This document shows positions 1-8,410 of a stretch of DNA of 8,410 nucleotides, one piece after another (positions within the stretch are counted from its first letter, which is position 1; the number at the start of each line of letters is the position of its first letter). The translations under genes were made by a program, and so were the position numbers. The notes below the pieces were generated by a model. That model did not search any database, had not been told where the DNA came from, and worked only from the letters and a program-made list of their open reading frames with translations. This DNA comes from Chloroflexota bacterium. GTDB taxonomy: Bacteria > Chloroflexota > Anaerolineae > Anaerolineales > UBA4823. Location: positions 1 through 8,410 of the forward strand of contig DAOVXM010000085.1 of NCBI GenBank assembly GCA_030636125.1. Reading direction: 5' to 3'.

Positions 1-581
1 ATCTTGCCAATATCATGTAATATGCTACCGTACATCAAATGGTTTAATTGGGCATCCGTCCATCCCTGATGCTTGGCAATTGCCACAGCATGGTCTCTAA
101 CTCGTTCTACATGCCCGCGTGTATAATGATCACGCAGCTCGATAGCGTTTGCCAGCATGATCAGGGAGGACTCATAGGCTTGTTGCAACTGCGCCAGCAG
201 GAGTTCCTGGCTACGCGATAGGCGCGAAGTGATCGTGGTAATCAATTCACCCCGCGTAACCGGTTTGACCAGGTAGTCCTCAGCACCCAACCTTTTTCCA
301 GCGTAAATGTCCTCTCTGCCTCTGCGAGCAGTCAGAAAAATAAACGGAATCGATACCCATTCCGGTTGGGCGCGTACAGCCTCGAAAAACTCGTAGCCGT
401 TCATCTCCGGCATAGAAATATCCGCTAAGATCAAATCAGGTGGAAGGGATTTCAACTGCTCTAATCCCCCCATCCCATTACCAGCAGTGAGCACAGAATA
501 TCCCTCGGTTACCAGGATTGCCTCCAACCCTTCTCTAAGGACATCGTTGTCTTCAACGATTAGGATAGTTTCTCCGGCCAT
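1..581 (-). CDS. Response regulator with HD-GYP domain (putative c-di-GMP phosphodiesterase), 3' part missing
   Basis: The minus-strand frame opens with ATG at 581 and runs off the left edge after 193 codons. Residues 4-120 are a CheY-like receiver: acidic pair E10/D11, phospho-acceptor D54 (in ADISMPEMNG), T84 and K106 (LVKP). After a helical linker, residues 140-193 match the beginning of an HD-GYP domain: ELRDHYTRGHVERV with H157, then LHDIGK with the HD pair H189-D190. In this family the domain hydrolyses cyclic-di-GMP; the GYP motif itself lies beyond the window, so activity cannot be judged. A ribosome site AGGAG (586-590) sits 4 bases before the ATG. The gene overlaps the end of the upstream sensor-kinase gene by 22 bp (560-581), which argues for coupled translation and a cognate kinase-regulator pair. 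The regulator probably changes c-di-GMP levels rather than binding DNA. Confidence 0.9.
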   Translation of the reverse strand, partial: MAGETILIVEDNDVLREGLEAILVTEGYSVLTAGNGMGGLEQLKSLPPDLILADISMPEMNGYEFFEAVRAQPEWVSIPFIFLTARRGREDIYAGKRLGAEDYLVKPVTRGELITTITSRLSRSQELLLAQLQQAYESSLIMLANAIELRDHYTRGHVERVRDHAVAIAKHQGWTDAQLNHLMYGSILHDIGK

Positions 582-3406
582 AATTCTCCTACTTGAATGG
601 GGAAATATACACTAAAAGTAGATCCCTTGTCAACCTCACTCCGAACATCTATGGAACTATCGTGGAGATCAATAATTTCTTTAACAATAGCCAAACCTAG
701 ACCAGTACCGTGAATCTTCGTTTGCCTGACTCGTTTTCCACGGTAAAATCGTTCAAACAAGTGTGCCTGATCCTCCGGATGGATACCCATACCAGTGTCC
801 GTCACCTCGAGACAAATGTTGTCAACGGTTTGACGAGTGTGCACATACACACCACCCACAGTTGTATAACGGATGGCATTCGATAAAAGGTTATTGATCA
901 CCCTTGCAAGCTGGTTTTGCTCTCCCCAAACTGGTGGTATATCCAAATCAGGTTCAAAAACCAACATCAGACCAGTGGCTTCGGCCATTGGACGATGAGC
1001 GGTAACAATCTGTTCCGTTAAAATATTTATATCAACAGGAGCGAATTCAATTTTCTTCGCTTTACCTATGGATAACCTGGAAAGATCTAAAATATCTTCT
1101 ACAAGTTTCATCAATAAATAGCTTTGATCCTTTAGAACTTCCAGGTAGGCCTTACGCTTTTTGGGTGGTGCATCAGCTAAGAGCTCTAGATACAAACTGA
1201 TATTTGTGGTGGGGGTGCGCAATTCATGGGATACATCTGAAACAAACAAGTCTTTAAGCCTGTCGAGTTCTTTTTGATGCGTAATATCGCGTTGGCTGCC
1301 CACATAACCCACAATCTGATTGCCCTCATCCCGTAAGGGGGAAACAGTCATCTGAACATCATAGCGACTAACATTTTTCCGAACTCCAACAAGTTCACCG
1401 CTCCAGACACGCCCCTCCTGTAAGATATCTCTTATCCCAACCAAGCGATCTGGTAAATCCTCATCAGCGTAAAATCCCCACAATTCCTGACCAATCAATT
1501 CCGTCTCCTGGTAGCCTGATTGCTCTTCATAAGCAGCATTTACGGTGATGAAGGTCCCCTCCAGATCGGTTACGACCACCCCTTCACCAACACTGGCCAA
1601 AATGGCTTCCACTCGCTCCTTGGATGCATGTAATTCATCTGTTCGTTCTGCGACGCGTTGTTCCAGTTCCGTTGCATAGCGTTTCAACCGTGTTACCAGG
1701 TGGATGTTCTCAATTAGGGGAGCAATCTGGCGCGCGACCACACGTAATATATCAATATCCTCCCCGCTGAAAATATCGCCACCCATTTTTGGACCAAGCG
1801 CTAACAAGCCTAAAATGCTTCCATGTCCAATAATGGGTACCCACAAATGAACCTGCTCACTATTGAGCAGTTGGTGCTCTTCCGGTGAGAGTTCCACTTC
1901 AGATAACGCGTTGCGTAAAGCTGATCGTTCGACAGCTTCACCCATATTTAACAGGTAAGATAAGCTGGTCCTAGGTAGAGTTGCGTAGGGTACGCTTGTC
2001 TGGTCATCTTCAATCGGATGTGGTGCAACCGCGATAACCGAAAAATCACCAGCTAAATCAGAGAGAAAAACACTGGTCTCATCCAGGCGCAGTGTCGTAA
2101 TCAGGCGCTGACTGACTGCCTCGGCCAAGTCCGGAAGCTCAGTGAGCTGCTCTAATCCTTGAGTGATCTGCGAAACGGCAAAGCGGTAGTCATACCAACC
2201 CCCGTAAAACACAGTATCCACAACTCTTTGGATGCGCCGGTGAAGTGGCACAAAAACGCTGGCGAGCACCAAGACAAGTACCGTGTTGACCACGGCTGTA
2301 TTGGCTAACTCAGGTGGCATCAAACGACTTAATACTACATATAGAATTAAGTAAAACGCTCCCAGGATCGAATAAACCAAAATAAAAGTAGCACCGCGGT
2401 TGACATGTCTCTCCACCTCAATTAGACGGTGACGGAAGATCGCGTAACCATAAGTTAAAGGTAGAAGAGCCAACCACAGTAAGGCATATGTATATGGGAT
2501 GATTGGAACCTGTAACAGCGCATCTGGTATCACTACCAGAGCCACCAGTGGCAATAAAGCGAGGACGCCACCCAAGACAACAATACGGATTTTCCCGCGT
2601 ACACCGGCTGTCGTTGCGTTGCGATATGAATAAAAGAGCAGACCAACAGCCAACAGAAAATTGATCGCCAGGAAGATACGATTAGCTAATTGATATTGTG
2701 GAAACCAGGCACTTGATTGAACCGCCTGTGAACCCCAAATCAGGTATGGCAGTCCACCAAGTATCGCTATTGCATACAAGCCGATCAATAAATAGCGACG
2801 TCCTTTTAAAGGTGTATTTTGTGGAAAATAAAAGTGAAAATGTACCGCCAGTGGACCAATGATCCATAAGAGAATGTTCACCAAACTAGAAATCCATGGA
2901 GGACCCAAATACGAACCCACACCAGCGACCAATAGCAGAGCCGTCACCATAAAGAAAAGGAAAAACAGGTTAGTCGCCTCACTGGCCGGTTTAAAAGCCT
3001 GGATTCCCACCCCAATCCCCCAGAAGATGAGAGCCACGATCAATGGCCCAAGACGGTTAACTTTCTCATCAAAAGATGGAATAACCAACCTGATGGGGAC
3101 TGTTATCATATTTCCATCTCGCTGGATCATAAGATGAGCAGTATCTCCAGGACGTTTATTACCATAAATCGGTCGCGCCTCGATCATGGGTACCCCATCG
3201 ATCGATAAGATAAGATCTCCCTCCTGAAGGGCCGCAAAATTGGGGCCTAAAGAGTCGATTTCTATGATTAAACCTGTATTGTCATAGTCAGTAATCCCGC
3301 CATAAGGATAGACCAAAGCCAGCGATACGCTCCAGCCGAGAAAAACTAAAACGACCAAAGCGAAAAGAAACGGCAAACTGATCCACCAACGTTGGGAGGT
3401 TTTCAT
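560..3406 (-). CDS. Membrane sensor histidine kinase: TM-PDZ-multiTM-GAF-PAS-HisKA-HATPase (ComP-like input half)
   Basis: This 948-residue kinase is numbered from the ATG at 3406; a TTG two codons earlier (3412) is also possible, and neither has a clear ribosome site. Domains in order: membrane segment 9-33; PDZ-like extracytoplasmic domain about 44-108 (LQEGDLILSIDG); roughly nine hydrophobic segments from 119 to 393; GAF-like domain about 420-570; short coiled coil 574-597; PAS 598-713; HisKA with phospho-acceptor H727 in VSDVSHELRTP; HATPase with N box N843, G1 box DTGMG (870-874), F box around 884-888 and G2 box GTGLGL (900-905). All catalytic boxes look intact, so an active autokinase is expected. 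The order TM, PDZ, membrane bundle, GAF, with a GYAIFRHRLIEVE-type sequence after the last-but-two helices, is as I recall it for Bacillus ComP. ComP, however, has a HisKA_3 core and no PAS. Gene order after a ComX/ComQ-like pair suggests that a peptide is the ligand (inference). Confidence 0.93.
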   Translation of the reverse strand: MKTSQRWWISLPFLFALVVLVFLGWSVSLALVYPYGGITDYDNTGLIIEIDSLGPNFAALQEGDLILSIDGVPMIEARPIYGNKRPGDTAHLMIQRDGNMITVPIRLVIPSFDEKVNRLGPLIVALIFWGIGVGIQAFKPASEATNLFFLFFMVTALLLVAGVGSYLGPPWISSLVNILLWIIGPLAVHFHFYFPQNTPLKGRRYLLIGLYAIAILGGLPYLIWGSQAVQSSAWFPQYQLANRIFLAINFLLAVGLLFYSYRNATTAGVRGKIRIVVLGGVLALLPLVALVVIPDALLQVPIIPYTYALLWLALLPLTYGYAIFRHRLIEVERHVNRGATFILVYSILGAFYLILYVVLSRLMPPELANTAVVNTVLVLVLASVFVPLHRRIQRVVDTVFYGGWYDYRFAVSQITQGLEQLTELPDLAEAVSQRLITTLRLDETSVFLSDLAGDFSVIAVAPHPIEDDQTSVPYATLPRTSLSYLLNMGEAVERSALRNALSEVELSPEEHQLLNSEQVHLWVPIIGHGSILGLLALGPKMGGDIFSGEDIDILRVVARQIAPLIENIHLVTRLKRYATELEQRVAERTDELHASKERVEAILASVGEGVVVTDLEGTFITVNAAYEEQSGYQETELIGQELWGFYADEDLPDRLVGIRDILQEGRVWSGELVGVRKNVSRYDVQMTVSPLRDEGNQIVGYVGSQRDITHQKELDRLKDLFVSDVSHELRTPTTNISLYLELLADAPPKKRKAYLEVLKDQSYLLMKLVEDILDLSRLSIGKAKKIEFAPVDINILTEQIVTAHRPMAEATGLMLVFEPDLDIPPVWGEQNQLARVINNLLSNAIRYTTVGGVYVHTRQTVDNICLEVTDTGMGIHPEDQAHLFERFYRGKRVRQTKIHGTGLGLAIVKEIIDLHDSSIDVRSEVDKGSTFSVYFPIQVGELWPEKLS

Positions 3407-3444
3407 TGTCAATTATTGCTAAATCGGTTATCCACGCTGAAAAG

Positions 3445-3453
3445 ATTTTATCA
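3445..3453 (-). promoter_or_regulatory. Possible extended -10 promoter for the sensor kinase gene
   Basis: Read on the minus strand this site is TGATAAAAT: a TGn extension followed by TAAAAT (5 of 6 matches to TATAAT). Initiation near 3438 would give a leader of about 30 bases before the ATG at 3406. No good -35 is present at 17 bases; TTGTGA lies 20 bases upstream of TAAAAT. It would let the kinase and regulator be expressed independently of the peptide gene, from which they are separated by a hairpin. Confidence 0.4.
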
Positions 3454-3502
3454 CAAGTAGGGTTATTTATTCACAAACCGAATTGTAAGGCAGAAAATAC
3501 AG

Positions 3503-3534
3503 CTACCCCCTCTCCATTGTCAGAAAGGGGGTAG
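3503..3534 (-). terminator. Hairpin after the ComQ-like gene, probable terminator or attenuator
   Basis: CTACCCCCT and AGGGGGTAG form a perfect 9-bp stem around a 14-base loop, starting 26 bases after the stop codon of the polyprenyl-synthase-like gene. On the minus strand the following sequence (CTGTATTTTCTG) has only a weak T-run, so termination may be partial. On the plus strand it is followed by A-rich sequence and no T-run, so minus-strand use is favoured. Confidence 0.55.
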
Positions 3535-3560
3535 AGAAAATTAATGATCTTTACAAGAAA

Positions 3561-4523
3561 TTACAGGCTTTGCAATAAAAGTAATAGCTCTTCCTGTGCT
3601 GTATATGCTGGATTTGCATTTTCCAGGAATGACGAAGCCATTGCTTTATGGCGCTCGATCTCTGCCACCATATAGGTCGCAGCCCCGCTAGTATCAATGA
3701 GATCCAAAGCTGATTCGGCTGCAGAGGGATCGATTGTGGCAACTCGCAGATACTCTCGTAAGCGCGCCCGCTGAGCAGGTGGGGAAACTTCCAGTGCAAA
3801 TACAGCAGGTAAGGAGCGTGCCAGTTCAGGTCTCTGGCCCGGTACTCCCGCTCCTTCAGGGGAGCGTACCTCATCAAAATCATCTAATAGCTGGATCACC
3901 AAGCCCAAATGTTGTCCAAACTGCGCGAAATTCTCCAACCTGTCAACCTCATCAATCGCTAAACGGGCTCCGCTGCGACAGGCCAAGCTAAAGAATACCC
4001 CCGATTTCGCTTCAGCATTTTGCCAATATTGTTCTAGTGTGGGCTCAGGGTTGGTTAACTCGCTTTGTTGCCCGCCGGACATGACAAGCAAACTTTTATA
4101 AAATTTATTTGCGATATCGAGTGCTGCCTCCTGCGAGGCTCCATGCTTATAAAGATCATTCAACGCCCAGGAGGCGCTAAAATAAAGACCTGAAGCTGCA
4201 TTCAAGGCCGCCGCTGTACCCTGTTCATCCCACCAAGGATCGGGCACGTCTTGGTCTTGCACACTGTCCATCAGATCAGCAGCGGCGTAGAACAACAGCC
4301 AGGCAACTGTGAGCCGGTTCGCCCAATGCAGTTCACCTCCAGCTGCCTGGCAGCATAATCCCGGTAAACGTGCCAACCGGGACAGACTGCCATCCGTCCC
4401 GGTAGTGTTTGAATGCTGAAACAACAAACCCAGGCGCATCACATCAACGAGATCCTGCCACGCACCTGTTTCTGCCCACAGAGCTTCTATTTGTTGTTGT
4501 AGTCCTTCGGTAAAATCGGACAA
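3561..4523 (-). CDS. Polyprenyl-synthase-fold protein, ComQ-like peptide isoprenyltransferase candidate
   Basis: This 320-residue protein has the class I trans-isoprenyl-diphosphate synthase layout. The first Asp-rich motif region is at 82-92 (ADLMDSVQDQD; D83, D86, D90, D92). GGQQSEL at 150-156 is equivalent to the GQ-x-x-D segment, K173 sits in NAEAKSG, and the second Asp-rich motif is at 211-218 (QLLDDFDE; D214, D215, D217). The motifs bind Mg2+ and the allylic diphosphate. The first motif reads DSVQD where ordinary chain-elongating synthases have DDxxD. Diverged first motifs fit enzymes that transfer a prenyl group to a non-prenyl acceptor, such as ComQ, which modifies a tryptophan of the ComX pheromone. 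The start is TTG at 4523; an in-frame stop three codons upstream rules out a longer form, and no strong ribosome site is seen. It begins 17 bp after the stop of the small peptide gene, so translational coupling is likely. The alternative is a housekeeping farnesyl- or geranylgeranyl-diphosphate synthase; the fold is much surer than the acceptor. Confidence 0.85.
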   Translation of the reverse strand: MSDFTEGLQQQIEALWAETGAWQDLVDVMRLGLLFQHSNTTGTDGSLSRLARLPGLCCQAAGGELHWANRLTVAWLLFYAAADLMDSVQDQDVPDPWWDEQGTAAALNAASGLYFSASWALNDLYKHGASQEAALDIANKFYKSLLVMSGGQQSELTNPEPTLEQYWQNAEAKSGVFFSLACRSGARLAIDEVDRLENFAQFGQHLGLVIQLLDDFDEVRSPEGAGVPGQRPELARSLPAVFALEVSPPAQRARLREYLRVATIDPSAAESALDLIDTSGAATYMVAEIERHKAMASSFLENANPAYTAQEELLLLLQSL

Positions 4524-4540
4524 ATTTACTTATTCAATTT

Positions 4541-4750
4541 TTACCGCCACCTGGCAGCCCTATCATCTGCGATATTGACGATATGCATCTTATCCTGACC
4601 AGCCCGGTTGTGGGCAGTCAAAAGGAAGGCCAATTCTTCCTGGCTCAGTTCATATCCCTTTTTTTTCAACGCAGATTCAGGATTGGAAAGCAATTGCGAG
4701 AGAAAGTCCGTATCTGTGGACATTTGATAGACTACTTGGGCGAGTGTCAT
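4541..4750 (-). CDS. Small peptide, candidate ComX-like prenylated pheromone precursor (69 aa)
   Basis: The ATG at 4750 has a strong ribosome site (AAGGAG, 4758-4763, 7 bases away). It encodes 69 residues with no signal peptide and no membrane segment. Residues 16-44 form a leader-like block, FLSQLLSNPESALKKKG then YELSQEELAFLL. The pattern L-x(n)-PE-x-ALKK...G...E resembles the leader of Bacillus ComX as I recall it, and more loosely Nif11-type RiPP leaders. The C terminus is IADDRAARWR: W68 is the only tryptophan and the penultimate residue, where ComX carries its prenylated tryptophan near the C-terminal end (RQWGD in strain 168, from memory). The next gene, 17 bp downstream, encodes a polyprenyl-synthase-fold protein, and a ComP-like kinase follows. 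I infer a peptide that is prenylated on W68, cut to a short C-terminal piece and sensed outside the cell. A small unmodified protein of unknown role remains possible. Confidence 0.8.
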   Translation of the reverse strand: MTLAQVVYQMSTDTDFLSQLLSNPESALKKKGYELSQEELAFLLTAHNRAGQDKMHIVNIADDRAARWR

Positions 4751-4757
4751 TGTTTAT

Positions 4758-4763
4758 CTCCTT
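4758..4763 (-). promoter_or_regulatory. Ribosome binding site of the peptide gene
   Basis: On the minus strand AAGGAG lies 7 bases before the ATG at 4750, which fixes that start. The stop codon of a short leader frame (4766-4768) lies just upstream. Confidence 0.85.
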
Positions 4764-4765
4764 CT

Positions 4766-4846
4766 TTAGGATACAGAATTATTTAATTGTAGATAATGTG
4801 TAAATCGATGTTCAAAGTCAAATTTCTGTGAAATATCTGTCTCCAG
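4766..4846 (-). other. Possible 26-residue upstream reading frame in the peptide-gene leader, with a perfect Shine-Dalgarno
   Basis: The leader contains AGGAGGTGA (4849-4857 on the minus strand), a 9-base perfect complement of the 16S rRNA tail. It lies about 100 bases upstream of the peptide start, too far to serve that gene. Five bases after AGGAGG comes CTG (4846), opening a 26-codon frame that ends in TAA (4768-4766) immediately before the peptide gene's own ribosome site. A GTG two codons earlier (4852) overlaps the Shine-Dalgarno. No ATG or TTG start exists in the frame, so translation is doubtful. If real it could be a leader peptide that couples translation to the downstream gene. Confidence 0.25.
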
Positions 4847-4923
4847 CGTCACCTCCTGTAGCCGCACTCAATGCGTGATGAATATTTAATTACGGACCTA
4901 ACAAATTTGAAAGCTTATGGTAC

Positions 4924-4952
4924 AAGATAGCATAATTCTATATGTTTGTCAA
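4924..4952 (-). promoter_or_regulatory. Strong sigma70-type promoter of the peptide/ComQ-like operon
   Basis: On the minus strand there is a perfect -35 TTGACA (4952-4947), a 17-base spacer and -10 TATCTT (4929-4924) preceded by TGC, that is, an extended -10. Predicted initiation is near 4917, which gives a leader of about 165 bases before the peptide ATG at 4750. It is the best promoter in the window, consistent with high or inducible expression of a secreted signal. Confidence 0.8.
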
Positions 4953-4971
4953 GGAAAATGATTACTTGTTT

Positions 4972-4990
4972 CAGGTGACATTGTCATCAG
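4972..4990. promoter_or_regulatory. Inverted repeat TGACA-T-TGTCA upstream of the peptide promoter, candidate operator
   Basis: TGACA (4976-4980) and TGTCA (4982-4986) form a dyad around one base; counting flanking bases, 15 of 19 positions are symmetric over 4972-4990. Its centre lies about 64 bases upstream of the predicted transcription start, a typical position for an activator contacting RNA polymerase from upstream. The binding protein is unknown; the regulator in this window has no DNA-binding domain in the part visible. Confidence 0.4.
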
Positions 4991-5013
4991 ACCAGTACCT
5001 TATGAAAATCAAG

Positions 5014-5031
5014 TTGGAAAAAACGTTCCAA
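5014..5031. promoter_or_regulatory. Inverted repeat TTGGAA-N6-TTCCAA, candidate operator
   Basis: Two perfect 6-base arms (5014-5019 and 5026-5031) are separated by AAAACG. The site lies about 100 bases upstream of the predicted peptide-gene start of transcription and between the two divergent units. Dyads of this size commonly bind dimeric regulators. It could equally be a chance palindrome in AT-rich sequence. Confidence 0.35.
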
Positions 5032-5044
5032 GCCTTAAAAACAT

Positions 5045-5067
5045 CTAATAGAATCGCTAATAGCATC
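5045..5067. repeat. Two direct repeats CTAATAG-n-ATC, 12-bp period
   Basis: CTAATAGAATC (5045-5055) and CTAATAGCATC (5057-5067) match at 10 of 11 positions and begin 12 bases apart. They are head to tail within the repeat-rich part of the intergenic region, so they may be protein-binding half-sites. Confidence 0.4.
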
Positions 5068-5090
5068 ACTCCAAACTGGCGCTAACGATA

Positions 5091-5120
5091 CCAACATTTC
5101 CCAACATAATCCAGAATTTT
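5091..5120. repeat. Tandem CCAACAT repeats at 10-bp period
   Basis: CCAACAT occurs at 5091-5097 and 5101-5107, and a weaker CCAGAAT follows at 5111-5117, each starting exactly 10 bases after the last. That is about one helical turn, so equivalent sites would face the same side of the DNA. A further CCAAACT at 5071 is in the same phase. This is consistent with a cooperative regulator but unproven. Confidence 0.35.
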
Positions 5121-5161
5121 TTGATTAAGTCTAAGTTACTATAGAGTTAAGTGGGTATCTG

Positions 5162-5333
5162 ATGAAATTCAATAACCGCCGCTCATACGAGGATGATATC
5201 GAAAAACTTTATTCATCTTCTAAGCGAACCACAACATTTTACGCATTTTTTTGAAAATCTACTGAATGCAAATGCACCGTTGTGTGATATATATATGTGT
5301 CATGCAGTTGAAGTAGTATGGACCCGGAAATGA
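5162..5333 (+). other. Two overlapping short frames joined across a T7 run; possible broken small gene
   Basis: ATG at 5162 opens a 30-residue frame (begins MKFNNRRSYEDD) that ends in TGA at 5252-5254, directly after a run of seven T (5246-5252). A second frame from ATG 5193 runs through the same T-run to TGA 5331-5333 (46 residues, ends AVEVVWTRK). One T fewer would fuse them into a 56-residue product. No strong ribosome site precedes either ATG and I recognise no family. It could be a frameshifted small gene, a sequencing error in a homopolymer, or chance. Confidence 0.2.
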
Positions 5334-5414
5334 GCCTCGTTGACTGCTTAAGTCCTAATGTAAAGAAGGCCATAGTAAGAGGCTATTTATCATTATTAGT
5401 TCAGGATCCTTTAT

Positions 5415-6338
5415 ATGTCTAAAAAAATCATGTACACAATAGACTTGCACTTCATGGACATTCCAGGAACAATTACCAGCTATTTAATCCCACATAAACG
5501 AGGTGGCGTTCTGGTGGAATGCGGACCTGGATCTACCCAAGCTGCACTCCAAGCTGGTCTTGAGCTTCACGGACTTTCCCCGGGCGATATCACCGACGTT
5601 CTACTAACGCATATCCATCTCGATCACGCCGGAGCTGCTGGATGGTTGGCCCAACAAGGCGCGCGCATTCATGTTCACCCTAAAGGTGCACCGCATATGC
5701 TCAACCCAGAAAAGCTTCTCGATAGCGCCGGACGCATTTATGGAGACACGATGGAATCCCTATGGGGAGAATTCCTTCCTGTGGAAGAAGAACGTCTTTC
5801 TGTAGTCGAAGATGGTGACATAATCGATGTGGATGGTTTACAATTCCGCGCTATTGATACACCAGGTCATGCCAATCACCATTATGTTTATATATTTGAG
5901 GATATATGTTTCAGCGGTGATATCGGGGGGGTACGCTTAGCTGGTCTACATCATTTGCGTTTGCCGATGCCGCCACCTGAATTCCACCTTGAAAAATGGC
6001 ATACCAGCCTAAAAAAGCTCACCCAGGAGAACTTCGATCGAATCGCGCCGACCCATTTCGGCATATACAGTGACTCACGTTGGCATCTGAACGCAGTAGA
6101 AAAGGCATTGGATGAAGTGGAAATTTGGATCGAGGCGACATTACCCAATGATCCACCAATTGAGGCTCTCAATGAGCAGTTCTTAGAGTGGTCTCGCACG
6201 CGTTCTCTAAAAAGTGGACTCGATCCTGAACAAATTAAGGCCTACCAGGCAGTCAACCCAAACTCGATGTCCAGTGTTGGGATCCATAGATACTGGCATA
6301 AGTACCGGGCAGGAAATTTATCAGGACATAATGAATAA
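5415..6338 (+). CDS. Metallo-beta-lactamase-fold hydrolase
   Basis: This 307-residue cytoplasmic protein has no signal peptide. The full dinuclear metal site of the family is visible: THIHLDH (H66, H68, D70, H71), H152 in DTPGHANHH, D169 in FSGDIGG and H214 in PTHFG. These ligands hold two metal ions, usually zinc, that activate water for hydrolysis. The C-terminal 90 residues are helical and extend beyond the core, as in glyoxalase II-like and lactonase-like members. The substrate cannot be told from sequence; thioesters, lactones and phosphoesters are all cleaved by relatives. The start ATG at 5415 follows AGGA (5403-5406) with 8 bases spacing. The gene overlaps the sirtuin gene by 8 bp, so the two are very likely co-transcribed. 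It is divergent from the peptide-signal operon, and no direct link to signalling is shown. Confidence 0.9.
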   Translation: MSKKIMYTIDLHFMDIPGTITSYLIPHKRGGVLVECGPGSTQAALQAGLELHGLSPGDITDVLLTHIHLDHAGAAGWLAQQGARIHVHPKGAPHMLNPEKLLDSAGRIYGDTMESLWGEFLPVEEERLSVVEDGDIIDVDGLQFRAIDTPGHANHHYVYIFEDICFSGDIGGVRLAGLHHLRLPMPPPEFHLEKWHTSLKKLTQENFDRIAPTHFGIYSDSRWHLNAVEKALDEVEIWIEATLPNDPPIEALNEQFLEWSRTRSLKSGLDPEQIKAYQAVNPNSMSSVGIHRYWHKYRAGNLSGHNE

Positions 6339-7119
6339 CCATTCCTCGCAAATTTCAGACCCTTGTGGGTATGATCTGCCTGTAGAATTGATCCGTTCGC
6401 TGCGGACGGCGCGACAGGTCGCCGTACTTACCGGCTCTGGTATCTCAGCTGAAAGCGGCATACCCACATTTCGAGAAGCCCAAACCGGACTCTGGGCGCG
6501 CTACGACCCTCAAGAGCTGGCAACCCCTCAGGCTTTTCGCAGCAACCCTCGCCTGGTATGGGAGTGGTACACCTGGCGCCGCGAACTTGTTTCCCAGGCC
6601 GAGCCCAATCCTGGTCATATCGCCTTAGCAGAACTAGAAAAACGGCTTGGTGGGACAGATTCTCAGTTCACCTTGATTACACAAAACGTAGATGGACTTC
6701 ACCAGCGGGCAGGAAGCCAAGCGATCATCGAGTTGCACGGAAACATCATGCGAACGAAATGTTTTAATGAAGATACACCCGTTGAGAAATGGAATGATAT
6801 TGATGATATCCCGCCGCACTGCCCTAACTGTGGTGGTCCTTTGCGACCTGACGTGGTCTGGTTCGGAGAAAATCTCCCACCAGATACTCTGCAATCATCT
6901 TGGGATACCGCTCAAACCTGCGATCTGTTTTTTTCGATCGGCACATCAATCCTCGTCGAGCCTGCAGCATCTCTGCCATACATTGCCCTACTCCAGGGGG
7001 CTACCATCATCGAGGTCAATCCATCCGCAACCCCGCTGACTGAGCAAGCGACTTACGTTTTACGAGGTCCTGCTGGAAAGATTTTGCCACGACTAGTACA
7101 GGCAATCTGGGGCAAATAA
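6331..7119 (+). CDS. cobB: Sirtuin (Sir2 family) NAD+-dependent protein deacylase
   Basis: This 262-residue protein has the complete sirtuin core: NAD-binding GSGISAESGIPTFRE (35-49), TQNVDGLH (117-124) with catalytic H136 in ELHGN, GTS (204-206) and VNPS (229-232). Y80 and R83 (WYTWRREL) correspond to the tyrosine-arginine pair that in SIRT5 and CobB recognises acyl groups with a carboxylate, so removal of succinyl or malonyl groups from lysine is plausible besides deacetylation. The zinc site is unusual: the second pair is normal (C164, C167 in CPNC), but the first has only C144 (KCFNED), with no partner Cys. The start is taken at ATG 6331, which has CAGGA just upstream. An in-frame ATG at 6214 would lie deep inside the hydrolase gene and add 39 unrelated residues. 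The start overlaps the hydrolase stop by 8 bp. Confidence 0.93.
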   Translation: MNNHSSQISDPCGYDLPVELIRSLRTARQVAVLTGSGISAESGIPTFREAQTGLWARYDPQELATPQAFRSNPRLVWEWYTWRRELVSQAEPNPGHIALAELEKRLGGTDSQFTLITQNVDGLHQRAGSQAIIELHGNIMRTKCFNEDTPVEKWNDIDDIPPHCPNCGGPLRPDVVWFGENLPPDTLQSSWDTAQTCDLFFSIGTSILVEPAASLPYIALLQGATIIEVNPSATPLTEQATYVLRGPAGKILPRLVQAIWGK

Positions 7120-7223: not shown

Positions 7224-8273
7224 TTAAAACATCAAATCATTGATCATCTGGATTGTATCAGGACCGGGGCGAATCCGGCTCTCTGGTAAACGATTCAGTG
7301 GTGTATCTGGCAAATTGTAAATATCAGTCATTGAGGGCTGATCCGTATCGATATAGATCAGGCCTGTTATCAAACAATTGCAATCATTGGCCTCCTCAAG
7401 GACACGAATTGCCGCGGATCTATCAGTTGGGTCGTAATCACGTTCCAGTTTCTTGAGTACGACCATAGAACCATCATGCATAGTAACTTCAAGGTCTTCC
7501 CCGTGCTCATACTCAACCAGGATCTCCTCTGCGGGTGGCACAAAGGATAGTTCATGTAGGGCTATTTCATGGTGTTTACCCCAGGAATACGAATGTGTCG
7601 CCGAATCCTGGTTATTAAAAGTCACACATGGGCTGATGATATCCAATACAGCCACACCATCATGGCTTAAAGCAGCCTTGATCAGCTCTTTAACCTGTCT
7701 CGGGTCACCAGCAAAGGAACGTGCTACAAAAGTAGCATGACCGACCAGGGCTTCCCAGGCAATATCAACTGGCATATAGCGATTTGTACCCTGACCTTTC
7801 AGGGTTAGACCTTCTTCCGCCGTTGCAGAGAATTGACCCTTCGTCAACCCATAAACACCGTTATTCTCTACAATATAAACCAAGCGCATATTACGGCGGA
7901 TGACATGTTTGAACTGCCCCATGCCTATACTGGCGGTATCCCCGTCGCCGCTCACAGCCATACCCTTGAGCGTGTGATCAGCAAATAATGCGCCTGTGGC
8001 GATGGAGGGCATTCGCCCGTGAAGTGAATTGAATCCGAAAGAACGGTTCAAGAAATAGGTAGGGCTCTTACTAGAACAGCCAATGCCGCTGAATTTGACA
8101 ATATCTTCCGGAAGAATATCCATTTCATAGCATGCAGTAGTGATCTGGCTTGAGATGGAATTGTGACCGCAACCCTGACACAATGTGGTGGGATTACCAC
8201 GATAATCAGATTTGCTAAGCCCAACAAGGTTTACCTGAACACGAGGTTTTGTCGTAGATGCTTGGTTCGTCAT
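7224..8273 (-). CDS. korB: 2-oxoacid:ferredoxin oxidoreductase, beta (TPP-binding) subunit
   Basis: This 349-residue subunit binds thiamine diphosphate and a [4Fe-4S] cluster. It oxidatively decarboxylates a 2-oxoacid (2-oxoglutarate or pyruvate) to acyl-CoA and passes electrons to ferredoxin. Cluster ligands are visible at C32 and C35 (CQGCGH), C66 (GIGCSSKSP) and C216 (ISPCVTF). The TPP/Mg motif is GDGD (109-112) through NNGVYGLTKGQ (137-147). Residues from about 230 form the extra C-terminal region typical of the longer KorB type of Actinobacteria and Chloroflexota rather than the shorter archaeal form; the sequence resembles the M. tuberculosis KorB pattern as I recall it. The ATG at 8273 is chosen because GAGGAG lies 7 bases upstream. 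A longer frame from 8312 would overlap the alpha-subunit gene and adds residues with no family match. Only one base separates it from the alpha-subunit stop, so the two subunits are surely co-transcribed. The 2-oxoacid specificity is not decided by the sequence. Confidence 0.93.
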   Translation of the reverse strand: MTNQASTTKPRVQVNLVGLSKSDYRGNPTTLCQGCGHNSISSQITTACYEMDILPEDIVKFSGIGCSSKSPTYFLNRSFGFNSLHGRMPSIATGALFADHTLKGMAVSGDGDTASIGMGQFKHVIRRNMRLVYIVENNGVYGLTKGQFSATAEEGLTLKGQGTNRYMPVDIAWEALVGHATFVARSFAGDPRQVKELIKAALSHDGVAVLDIISPCVTFNNQDSATHSYSWGKHHEIALHELSFVPPAEEILVEYEHGEDLEVTMHDGSMVVLKKLERDYDPTDRSAAIRVLEEANDCNCLITGLIYIDTDQPSMTDIYNLPDTPLNRLPESRIRPGPDTIQMINDLMF

Positions 8274-8274
8274 A

Positions 8275-8410
8275 TTATTTCTCCTCATGAGCCAGGATTG
8301 AATTGCGCACACGGTTGGCTGTTATTGACAAGCCATCAGTATGAGCTAATGAGATCAACTTCGTTGCCTGGTCAGGATAATCTAAGCTGAGCAACTGGTG
8401 AAGTTGCCCA
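8275..8410 (-). CDS. korA: 2-oxoacid:ferredoxin oxidoreductase, alpha subunit, C-terminal end only
   Basis: An open frame enters from the right edge and ends with TAA at 8277-8275. The visible 44 residues begin GQLHQLLSLDYPDQ and end RVRNSILAHEEK. A GQL segment near the C terminus, followed by a short helical tail, is usual for the alpha subunit of this enzyme family. Identification rests mostly on position, with the stop one base before the beta-subunit ATG and on the same strand. The pyruvate/2-oxoacid-binding core lies outside the window. Confidence 0.75.
   Translation of the reverse strand, partial: GQLHQLLSLDYPDQATKLISLAHTDGLSITANRVRNSILAHEEK
8281..8286 (-). promoter_or_regulatory. Ribosome binding site deciding the beta-subunit start
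   Basis: GAGGAG on the minus strand lies 7 bases before the ATG at 8273 and inside the last codons of the alpha-subunit gene. It supports that start over the upstream in-frame ATG at 8312. Confidence 0.8.

Follow-up and report, generated by a model that had tools for sequence, protein, structure and literature searches.

Gene organization of the locus

The DNA analysed here is a stretch of 8,410 nucleotides from a Chloroflexota bacterium (contig DAOVXM010000085.1 of assembly GCA_030636125.1, referred to below as the window), which carries on its minus strand four consecutive genes encoding a precursor peptide, an enzyme of the isoprenoid synthase fold, a histidine kinase and a response regulator (Table 1). 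An earlier note, made from the sequence alone, had described the first two genes as a candidate ComX/ComQ-like pair that would make a prenylated peptide signal. The 69-residue and 320-residue open reading frames (ORFs), the 17-bp gap between them and the peptide-first order (X-Q-P-regulator) are present as described, and the inferred signal gains support, prenylation itself being a proposal from sequence. The pair belongs, however, to a larger locus, as the note had missed the kinase and receiver genes that follow downstream on the same strand: 148 bp separate the enzyme and kinase genes, and the kinase and regulator genes overlap by 22 bp. The kinase ORF begins at 3412, with an ATG at 3406. 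We propose that this locus is a ComXQP-like pheromone cassette of Anaerolineae-type Chloroflexota, in which a ribosomally synthesized and post-translationally modified peptide (RiPP) with a PalX-like leader would be prenylated and sensed by its own receptor, and we assign to this proposal a probability of roughly three in four. The gene content, conservation, linkage, homology and clade membership on which it is built were computed.

Table 1. Features of the window and of related loci elsewhere (locus number before the colon)
Feature	Position	Strand	Basis or remarks
Precursor peptide gene (X-like), 69 residues	4541..4750	-	leader about residues 1-45 (4616-4750), variable tail residues 46-69
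AAGGAG, ribosome-binding-site-like, 5' of the peptide start	4758..4763	-	sequence reading
W68 codon, penultimate residue, proposed prenylation site	4547..4549	-	conservation among homologues
ComQ-clade enzyme of the isoprenoid synthase fold (Q-like), 320 residues, TTG start, proposed Trp prenyltransferase	3561..4523	-	PF00348, trees
First Asp motif, D86-S-V-Q-D90 (position of the ComQ DDxxD)	4254..4268	-	alignment
Second Asp motif, Q211-L-L-D214-D215-F-D-E	3870..3893	-	alignment
Terminator-like hairpin in the enzyme/kinase gap, 14 pairs (7 G-C)	3503..3534	-	consensus match only
Histidine kinase (P-like), 950 residues: PDZ and multi-helix sensor, GAF, PAS, HisKA, HATPase_c	560..3412	-	Pfam
Sensor module, residues 1-392: hydrophobic 7-38, PDZ 48-108, more hydrophobic segments within 121-392	2237..3412	-	hydropathy, PDZ_2
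Response regulator, REC and start of HD domain, truncated by the window end	3..581	-	PF00072, PF13487
Enzyme of L037/L141, Arg-bearing loop missing	L141:3825-4856		leader-family peptide 4 bp upstream
Tandem-core precursors with NHLP-like leader	L171:5046-5384, L172:1517-1945, L173:3188-3742, L175:5154-5870		beside ComQ-clade enzymes

The precursor peptide and its tryptophan

The precursor leader belongs to the NHLP clan: residues 3-45 match NF038399 (Os1348 family) with 42.3 bits against a curated cut-off of 40, which bears out the leader-like block read earlier, and PF14407 also matches, under its cut-off. A Pfam scan of the precursor to E 0.1 gave no match to the ComX family PF05952; a genome search with PF05952 matched none of 5 genomes, the controls being silent too though B. 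subtilis was among the 14 control genomes, and a plasmid search with the precursor peptide gave no match.

W68 is the sole tryptophan of the precursor, as had been claimed, and is followed only by R69. Its alignment column holds Trp in 52 of 53 near homologues (98%, window included), the commonest residue reaching 22-56% in the remaining seven of the last eight columns, and W68 is invariant in an alignment of 28 chosen diverse rows. Among 123 listed peptide homologues (52 from a first search and 71 new ones among the best 120 of 389 from a second), 120 carry their last Trp among the final three residues; in P0146 it stands one place further in, and the tails of P0143 and P0172 are unrelated. 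Trp is the very last residue in two of the 123. The residue before it is Gly in 74 of 122 homologues and Arg in the window; according to the part of PMC13290415 available to us, Gly before Trp favours PalQ, a Trp prenyltransferase compared with the window enzyme below.

Beside several ComQ-clade enzymes the precursor carries tandem cores. The leader peptides upstream in L171, L172 and L173 have 3, 4 and 5 head-to-tail Trp cores of the GPNGPWGWQF kind, and in L175, part of which is masked, a GPFPGWQ core occurs at least six times. Multi-core precursors are known in other RiPPs and in yeast pheromones; we know of none for ComX-type peptides. Of the internal arguments for the Trp segment being the product, these tandem cores are the best.

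The leader itself is a poor guide. Of 301 Chloroflexota genomes, 125 have a member of its family, none of 30 leader-family loci examined has a synthase within about 3 kb, and in 13 of the 24 with a recognised frame the peptide ends in G[RK]GF plus one residue. Because leaders of this family are common in combination with other tails, the leader alone was rejected as evidence.

Two variants of the precursor region were also observed: near-identical tandem precursor copies stand ahead of the enzyme in L001 (2361-2576 and 2606-2821), and the tails upstream of the enzyme in L167, L168 and L169 (ENIWVPPTYP, QQWVP and EALWVPPNLP) have the Trp followed by a Pro-bearing end, possibly as a separate class of signal.

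The enzyme

The enzyme matches PF00348 with 60.3 bits against a cut-off of 27, and its first aspartate-rich motif (FARM) is diverged, in agreement with the earlier reading: Asp 1 and 5 are kept and Asp 2 is lost. A search returned 284 homologues, and in a 42-row alignment of the window with 41 of the best 120, D86, D90, Q211 and D214 are invariant and D215 is conserved in at least 90%. D86 and D90 align with the first and fifth FARM Asp of four ComQs taken from plasmid loci adjoining annotated ComX genes, and both positions are kept in 27/27 family rows and 4/4 ComQs; in ComQ they are reported as essential (PMC5331326, consulted in part). In all 23 housekeeping rows the FARM is followed by a longer, Arg-bearing loop, which was not found in the alignment in the 27 family rows, two diverged rows, the four ComQs, L030 or L037.

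In the second aspartate-rich motif (SARM) the family keeps the first Asp and mostly the second (D214-D215-F-D-E in the window). The four ComQs have lost the first, as have L029 and L033, two diverged loci from Chloroflexota. A role in holding the Trp indole has been proposed for the first Asp of the SARM together with the Gln preceding it (PMC13290415, in the section available). The invariance of Q211 and D214 is consistent with such a role, although it does not prove the reaction.

A first tree, built without an outgroup, left the rooting undecided, and an outgroup was added afterwards. In the resulting tree of 13 family rows, 4 ComQs, 2 diverged rows, L104, 23 housekeeping type I geranylgeranyl diphosphate (GGPP) synthases and 12 other synthases, the family, ComQ and diverged rows and L104 lie together on one side of a branch with support 100/98, and the same grouping is recovered at 99/96, with 3 ComQs, when the motif columns and the two longest rows are left out. 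The enzyme/ComQ clade nests among the type I GGPP synthases. These synthases share with the window enzyme the fold and PF00348, and differ by the Arg-bearing loop and, in the stretches examined, by having neither a leader peptide nor a sensor beside them. Of the marks of a housekeeping GGPP or farnesyl diphosphate (FPP) synthase, namely two DDxxD motifs and the Arg-bearing loop, the window enzyme has FARM Asp 2 replaced and the loop missing. Each of the 7 genomes searched also has separate PF00348 synthases with high scores. On the trees, the motif loop, the gene linkage and these paralogues, identity as the housekeeping synthase was rejected.

The receptor kinase and the output

GAF, PAS, HisKA and HATPase_c domains of the kinase score over their Pfam cut-offs, PDZ_2 reaches 26.1 bits, just under the cut-off of 27, and hydropathy places the PDZ-like stretch between hydrophobic segments. 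When a profile of 27 Chloroflexota sensors is aligned with two ComP-position kinases, the match spans 421 columns at an hhalign probability of 98.6; against the profile the two kinases score 90.6 and 66.7 bits. Applied to 1671 frames of 100 loci, the sensor profile gives 88 bits for L060 and 64 for L061, both beside annotated comX, and 81 bits for the kinase of the ComQ-bearing record L063; frames that are neither sensor nor ComP piece score at most 6.1 bits. In a comparison of five parts across 13 kinases the PDZ varies most, with 32% mean identity vs 61% for the kinase core, as expected for the receptor of a variable signal. With a ComP-like kinase and a response regulator in the locus, a signal becomes likelier than from the two upstream genes alone.

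In L063 (CP065518, labelled Stenotrophomonas rhizophila) the ComQ-like and ComP-like frames lie on a plasmid with a gammaproteobacterial label, which may be wrong because the ComQ match score nearly equals the Lysinibacillus one. Sensors of the PDZ/membrane type also occur without a synthase at L101:5570-8104 and L102:4405-6798, and the end of the L101 protein reads like a phosphatase domain.

The window regulator matches PF00072 with 94.6 bits, and the start of PF13487 reaches 14 bits, below cut-off in the truncated gene. Among 10 proteins scanned in a survey of outputs, the regulators of relatives were found to be REC with full-length HD_5 (L008), REC alone (L024) and REC-GerE (L014, L018 and L025); the genes after the kinase encode a DnaG-like primase and a sigma-70 factor in L002 and a kinase/pyrophosphorylase in L016, and the L013 kinase is of the HisKA_3 type. 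As the regulator type differs by lineage, a cyclic-di-GMP output is suggested for the window's lineage only, and there perhaps.

Recurrence of the cassette in Chloroflexota

Loci for the linkage analysis were picked by the enzyme alone, by searching genome contigs with the enzyme alignment; a genome scan with a single enzyme sequence as query gave no match. All 27 loci obtained come from genomes assigned to Chloroflexota, in most cases to Anaerolineales or Anaerolineae, and two of the genomes contribute two loci each. The precursor profile matches directly upstream of the enzyme in 23 of them (E < 0.1; weakest L014, 0.01), so the precursor-enzyme arrangement is not due to chance. The four misses are two contig ends (L015, L021), a masked stretch upstream (L024) and a doubtful candidate only (L026). 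Trp is among the last three residues in 20 of the 23 precursors, is fourth from the end in L025 and lies further in, by reading, in L012 and L014. A kinase homologous to the sensor half of the window kinase lies downstream of the enzyme in 24/27 loci, at no more than 301 bp in 22 of the 24, at 527 bp in L011 and at 1270 bp in L003; the misses are contig ends (L007, L019) and a partial copy with a masked stretch (L027). Neither the peptide profile (at E < 0.5) nor the sensor profile matched in 23 loci of housekeeping rows, covered with about 1.5 kb to either side. The earlier note had named two outcomes that would refute its proposal, and neither was obtained: the enzyme does not occur mostly without the peptide gene, given the 23 loci above, and does not cluster with housekeeping synthases, since the 13 family rows form a clade with the four ComQs apart from them; and W68 is conserved.

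A cruder test, which accepted any short upstream ORF with Trp in the last 12 residues, was rejected as too loose (20/25 and 10/16 vs 5/23 controls), and the leader profile was therefore relied on instead; no enzyme was obtained from L019, L027 and L177, which were left out of the counts, and the controls were L034-L036 and L038-L057, a set that differs by two loci from the 23 housekeeping rows of the other tests.

A class-wide survey found the enzyme in 16 of 396 genomes, as 18 loci at E 1e-45 or better. Seventeen of these were examined (L164, L165 and L166 repeat L013, L018 and L015), and 14 have the sensor kinase; L170 is without it, the contig of L177 ends at the enzyme and in L178 no such kinase was detected. 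Inspection by eye showed 14 of the 17 to have an upstream frame that resembles a leader peptide and carries Trp in the second half; none was seen in L163 and L170, and L166 is cut. In a phylum-wide sample of 400 genomes, 287 had some PF00348-type match, and the best 30 loci contained the full-length family once (the seed genome), together with L037 and two far-diverged precursor-enzyme-kinase trios (L029/L109 and L033/L110). From these counts the family is patchy and not universal.

Some genomes have additional copies. In CP070785, L027 consists of a partial second precursor and an enzyme start ending at a masked stretch, and the enzyme, kinase and regulator are in L024. At L104:3761-7438 and L103:5258-8156, genomes with the main cassette have a further synthase-sensor pair, divergently oriented; no peptide was recognised in either pair, and the reading frame of the L103 enzyme is short. 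Beside the cassette, the window contains genes for a metallo-beta-lactamase-fold protein (5415-6338), a Sir2 protein (6304-7119) and a thiamine pyrophosphate enzyme (7224-8312). A homologue of the first lies divergently upstream in 12 of the 27 enzyme-selected loci, and in L027 all three genes are, by reading, repeated further on. Together with the groups to which the 27 loci belong, these shared neighbours point to an Anaerolineae-type host.

Comparison with known systems

The PalX/PalQ/PalP system of Paenibacillus alvei (PMC10853753, consulted in part, as were the other papers cited in this section) is the experimental precedent for an NHLP precursor and a Trp prenyltransferase beside a histidine kinase. 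It shares with the window an NHLP-type precursor with a conserved C-terminal Trp, a Trp prenyltransferase of the isoprenoid synthase fold and a histidine kinase gene in the cluster. PalQ, however, forms a cluster of its own that is by description remote from the FPP-synthase and ComQ subfamilies (PMC10853753), whereas the window enzyme is of PF00348 and the ComQ clade; PalX ends in Trp and the window precursor in Trp-Arg; and the three-gene cluster as described has no regulator, whereas the window has one.

With ComQXPA (PMC5331326; PMC4008528; loci L059-L061) the window shares a short precursor with Trp near the C terminus, a FARM-bearing enzyme of the same clade, a PDZ/multi-helix receptor kinase whose sensor is homologous to ComP and which adjoins as in ComQXPA, and an adjoining regulator. 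W68 of 69 falls within the ComQXPA range, in which Trp is second to fourth from the C terminus (PMC5331326). The window precursor differs in having a RiPP leader and no match to the ComX family, and the SARM is intact in the window vs degenerate in ComQ, where only the second Asp is kept. ComP and ComA are of the HisKA_3 and LuxR (NarL) types. The window has instead a HisKA kinase and a REC-HD output, vs HisKA_3 and REC-LuxR in ComQXPA, and the order X-Q-P-regulator vs Q-X-P-A. Four ComQXPA features (ComX family, degenerate SARM, kinase and regulator type, gene order) and one of PalXQP (terminal Trp) are thus lacking, and we therefore do not class the locus as a strict ComQXPA member. The ComX/ComQ likeness claimed earlier stands for the enzyme, which is in the ComQ clade, and not for the precursor, which is nearer PalX, nor for the SARM.

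Other systems share single parts. The NHLP/Os1348/Franean1_4349 leaders (NF038399, PF14407) share the leader match, the family occurring elsewhere with other tails and no nearby synthase. ChrPC and Ord1, which are trans-isoprenyl diphosphate synthase-like (PMC13290415), share a fold acting on Trp and the Gln and SARM Asp that correspond to Q211 and D214; by description, ChrPC has an extra cyclase domain and Ord1 acts on free Trp. PMC12715784, as far as it was available, concerns another kind of prenyltransferase.

Evidence against the proposal and alternative explanations

Several observations weigh against a prenylated pheromone cassette. The grouping with ComQ depends on trees with long branches and only 4 or 3 ComQs, and the outgroup split is weak (46/43), with one outgroup row misplaced. 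Profile scores alone fail to tell ComQ from housekeeping synthases: in likeness to ComQ the window enzyme reaches 60.7 bits and the best housekeeping synthase 76.4, and the family profile gives 137.8 for L030, an outlier, up to 135.8 for GGPP synthases and 69.4 for ComQ. L030, which had first been labelled a housekeeping row, falls with the family in the tree without outgroup, and the L030/L143 enzyme, which also lacks the Arg-bearing loop, has neither peptide nor sensor nearby. Before the L037/L141 enzyme stands a leader peptide whose last residue is Tyr in place of Trp, and no sensor follows, so that this may be a Tyr-modifying or an unrelated pair. Trp-rich tails are also found in three of the 30 synthase-less leader-family loci (L133, L134 and L138, within about 3 kb), examples being ...WGWFSWW and ...SSGLWL. 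Residues after Trp are reported to abolish PalQ activity (PMC13290415, in the part available), yet R69 follows W68 here. Six of 8 further sensor regions have no synthase within about 6 kb, which indicates that receptors of this type respond to other inputs as well. The scan of 7 window proteins recognised neither an exporter nor a protease. Finally, the terminator-like hairpin parts the enzyme gene from the kinase gene and suggests separate control of signal and receptor; sites of this class number 3 in 3400-5450 vs 1.8 expected in shuffles.

The intact SARM, which also fits an enzyme still elongating prenyl chains, leads to the alternative that we consider unlikely but the most serious, namely that the enzyme does more than ComQ, by first elongating a prenyl diphosphate with isopentenyl diphosphate or by cyclising the chain after transfer, and thus puts a longer or polycyclic terpenoid on Trp. 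It would account for the retention of D214 (42/42) and D215 (at least 90%) where the first Asp is gone from four ComQs and from L029/L033, and it has a precedent in ChrPC, which prenylates and cyclises on Trp (PMC13290415, as described there in the part available). The Arg-bearing loop after the FARM is missing, however, a Pfam scan found no separate cyclase domain in the 320 residues, and D214 may simply bind the indole, as proposed for the first SARM Asp (same source). That the enzyme is instead an ordinary short-chain prenyl diphosphate synthase, next to an unrelated RiPP or regulator gene, we regard as very improbable. PF00348 membership, the many public annotations that call relatives geranylgeranyl pyrophosphate synthase, and the wide occurrence of the leader family away from synthases agree with it; the separate PF00348 synthases of all genomes searched, the loss of the Arg-bearing loop and the conserved peptide-enzyme-kinase order and Trp do not.

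If W68 is prenylated, the product could still be something other than a pheromone. It may be a secreted bioactive RiPP, antimicrobial or surface-active, with the kinase sensing envelope stress or product level for self-regulation and not cell density. Prenylation of the PalQ type increases antimicrobial activity of peptides (PMC13290415, in the part available), and sensors of the same type are found without the enzyme. We judge this explanation improbable, because among characterised architectures the closest one, ComQXPA, serves pheromone signalling, the sensor module shares homology with ComP, and the scan of 7 window proteins recognised neither a transporter nor an immunity gene. Less probable again, in our estimate, is a prenylated peptide that stays in the producer's membrane, where it would act as an internal subunit gating the kinase. 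A short, lipidic mature peptide is conceivable, and the lack of a recognised exporter among the window proteins scanned would fit; the variable tail, the variable PDZ and the tandem-core precursors, however, resemble an outward signal. The ComX locus, moreover, has no dedicated exporter either, and ComX still leaves the cell.

Proposed mechanism and significance

For the preferred reading, a prenylated-RiPP pheromone cassette, we infer the chemistry, chain length, export, sensing and output from the genes and their relatives. The NHLP-type leader of the 69-residue precursor would dock on the ComQ-clade enzyme, which would bind a prenyl diphosphate through D86 and D90 and prenylate the indole of W68, with Q211 and D214 near the indole NH. 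Proteases would then remove the leader, and the modified C-terminal peptide would exit the cell and be recognised by the neighbouring kinase through its extracellular PDZ and membrane part. From the kinase, phosphate would move to the REC-HD regulator, which in this lineage may change cyclic-di-GMP.

A 2014 census of comQXPA-like loci reports none outside Firmicutes (PMC4008528, seen in part). Among the best-matching titles and abstracts, with subscription literature mostly outside the search, no description of a Trp-prenylated pheromone system in Chloroflexota was found, and none outside Firmicutes is named in the literature cited here. It is conceivable, although we would place the odds somewhat below even, that prenyl-RiPP signalling forms an older family from which Bacillus ComQXPA derives as a single branch and whose larger diversity lies in Chloroflexota, with RiPP leaders, single or tandem Trp cores, enzymes with both motifs that may build their own prenyl donor, and outputs of the LuxR or HD-GYP type.

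If the proposal is true, the mostly uncultured and often filamentous Chloroflexota would gain a concrete, testable peptide signal between cells, and RiPP leader biology would be linked to the evolution of ComX. The family would also supply many candidate Trp prenyltransferases, and would make matched signal-receptor pairs and multi-core precursors available for biochemistry.

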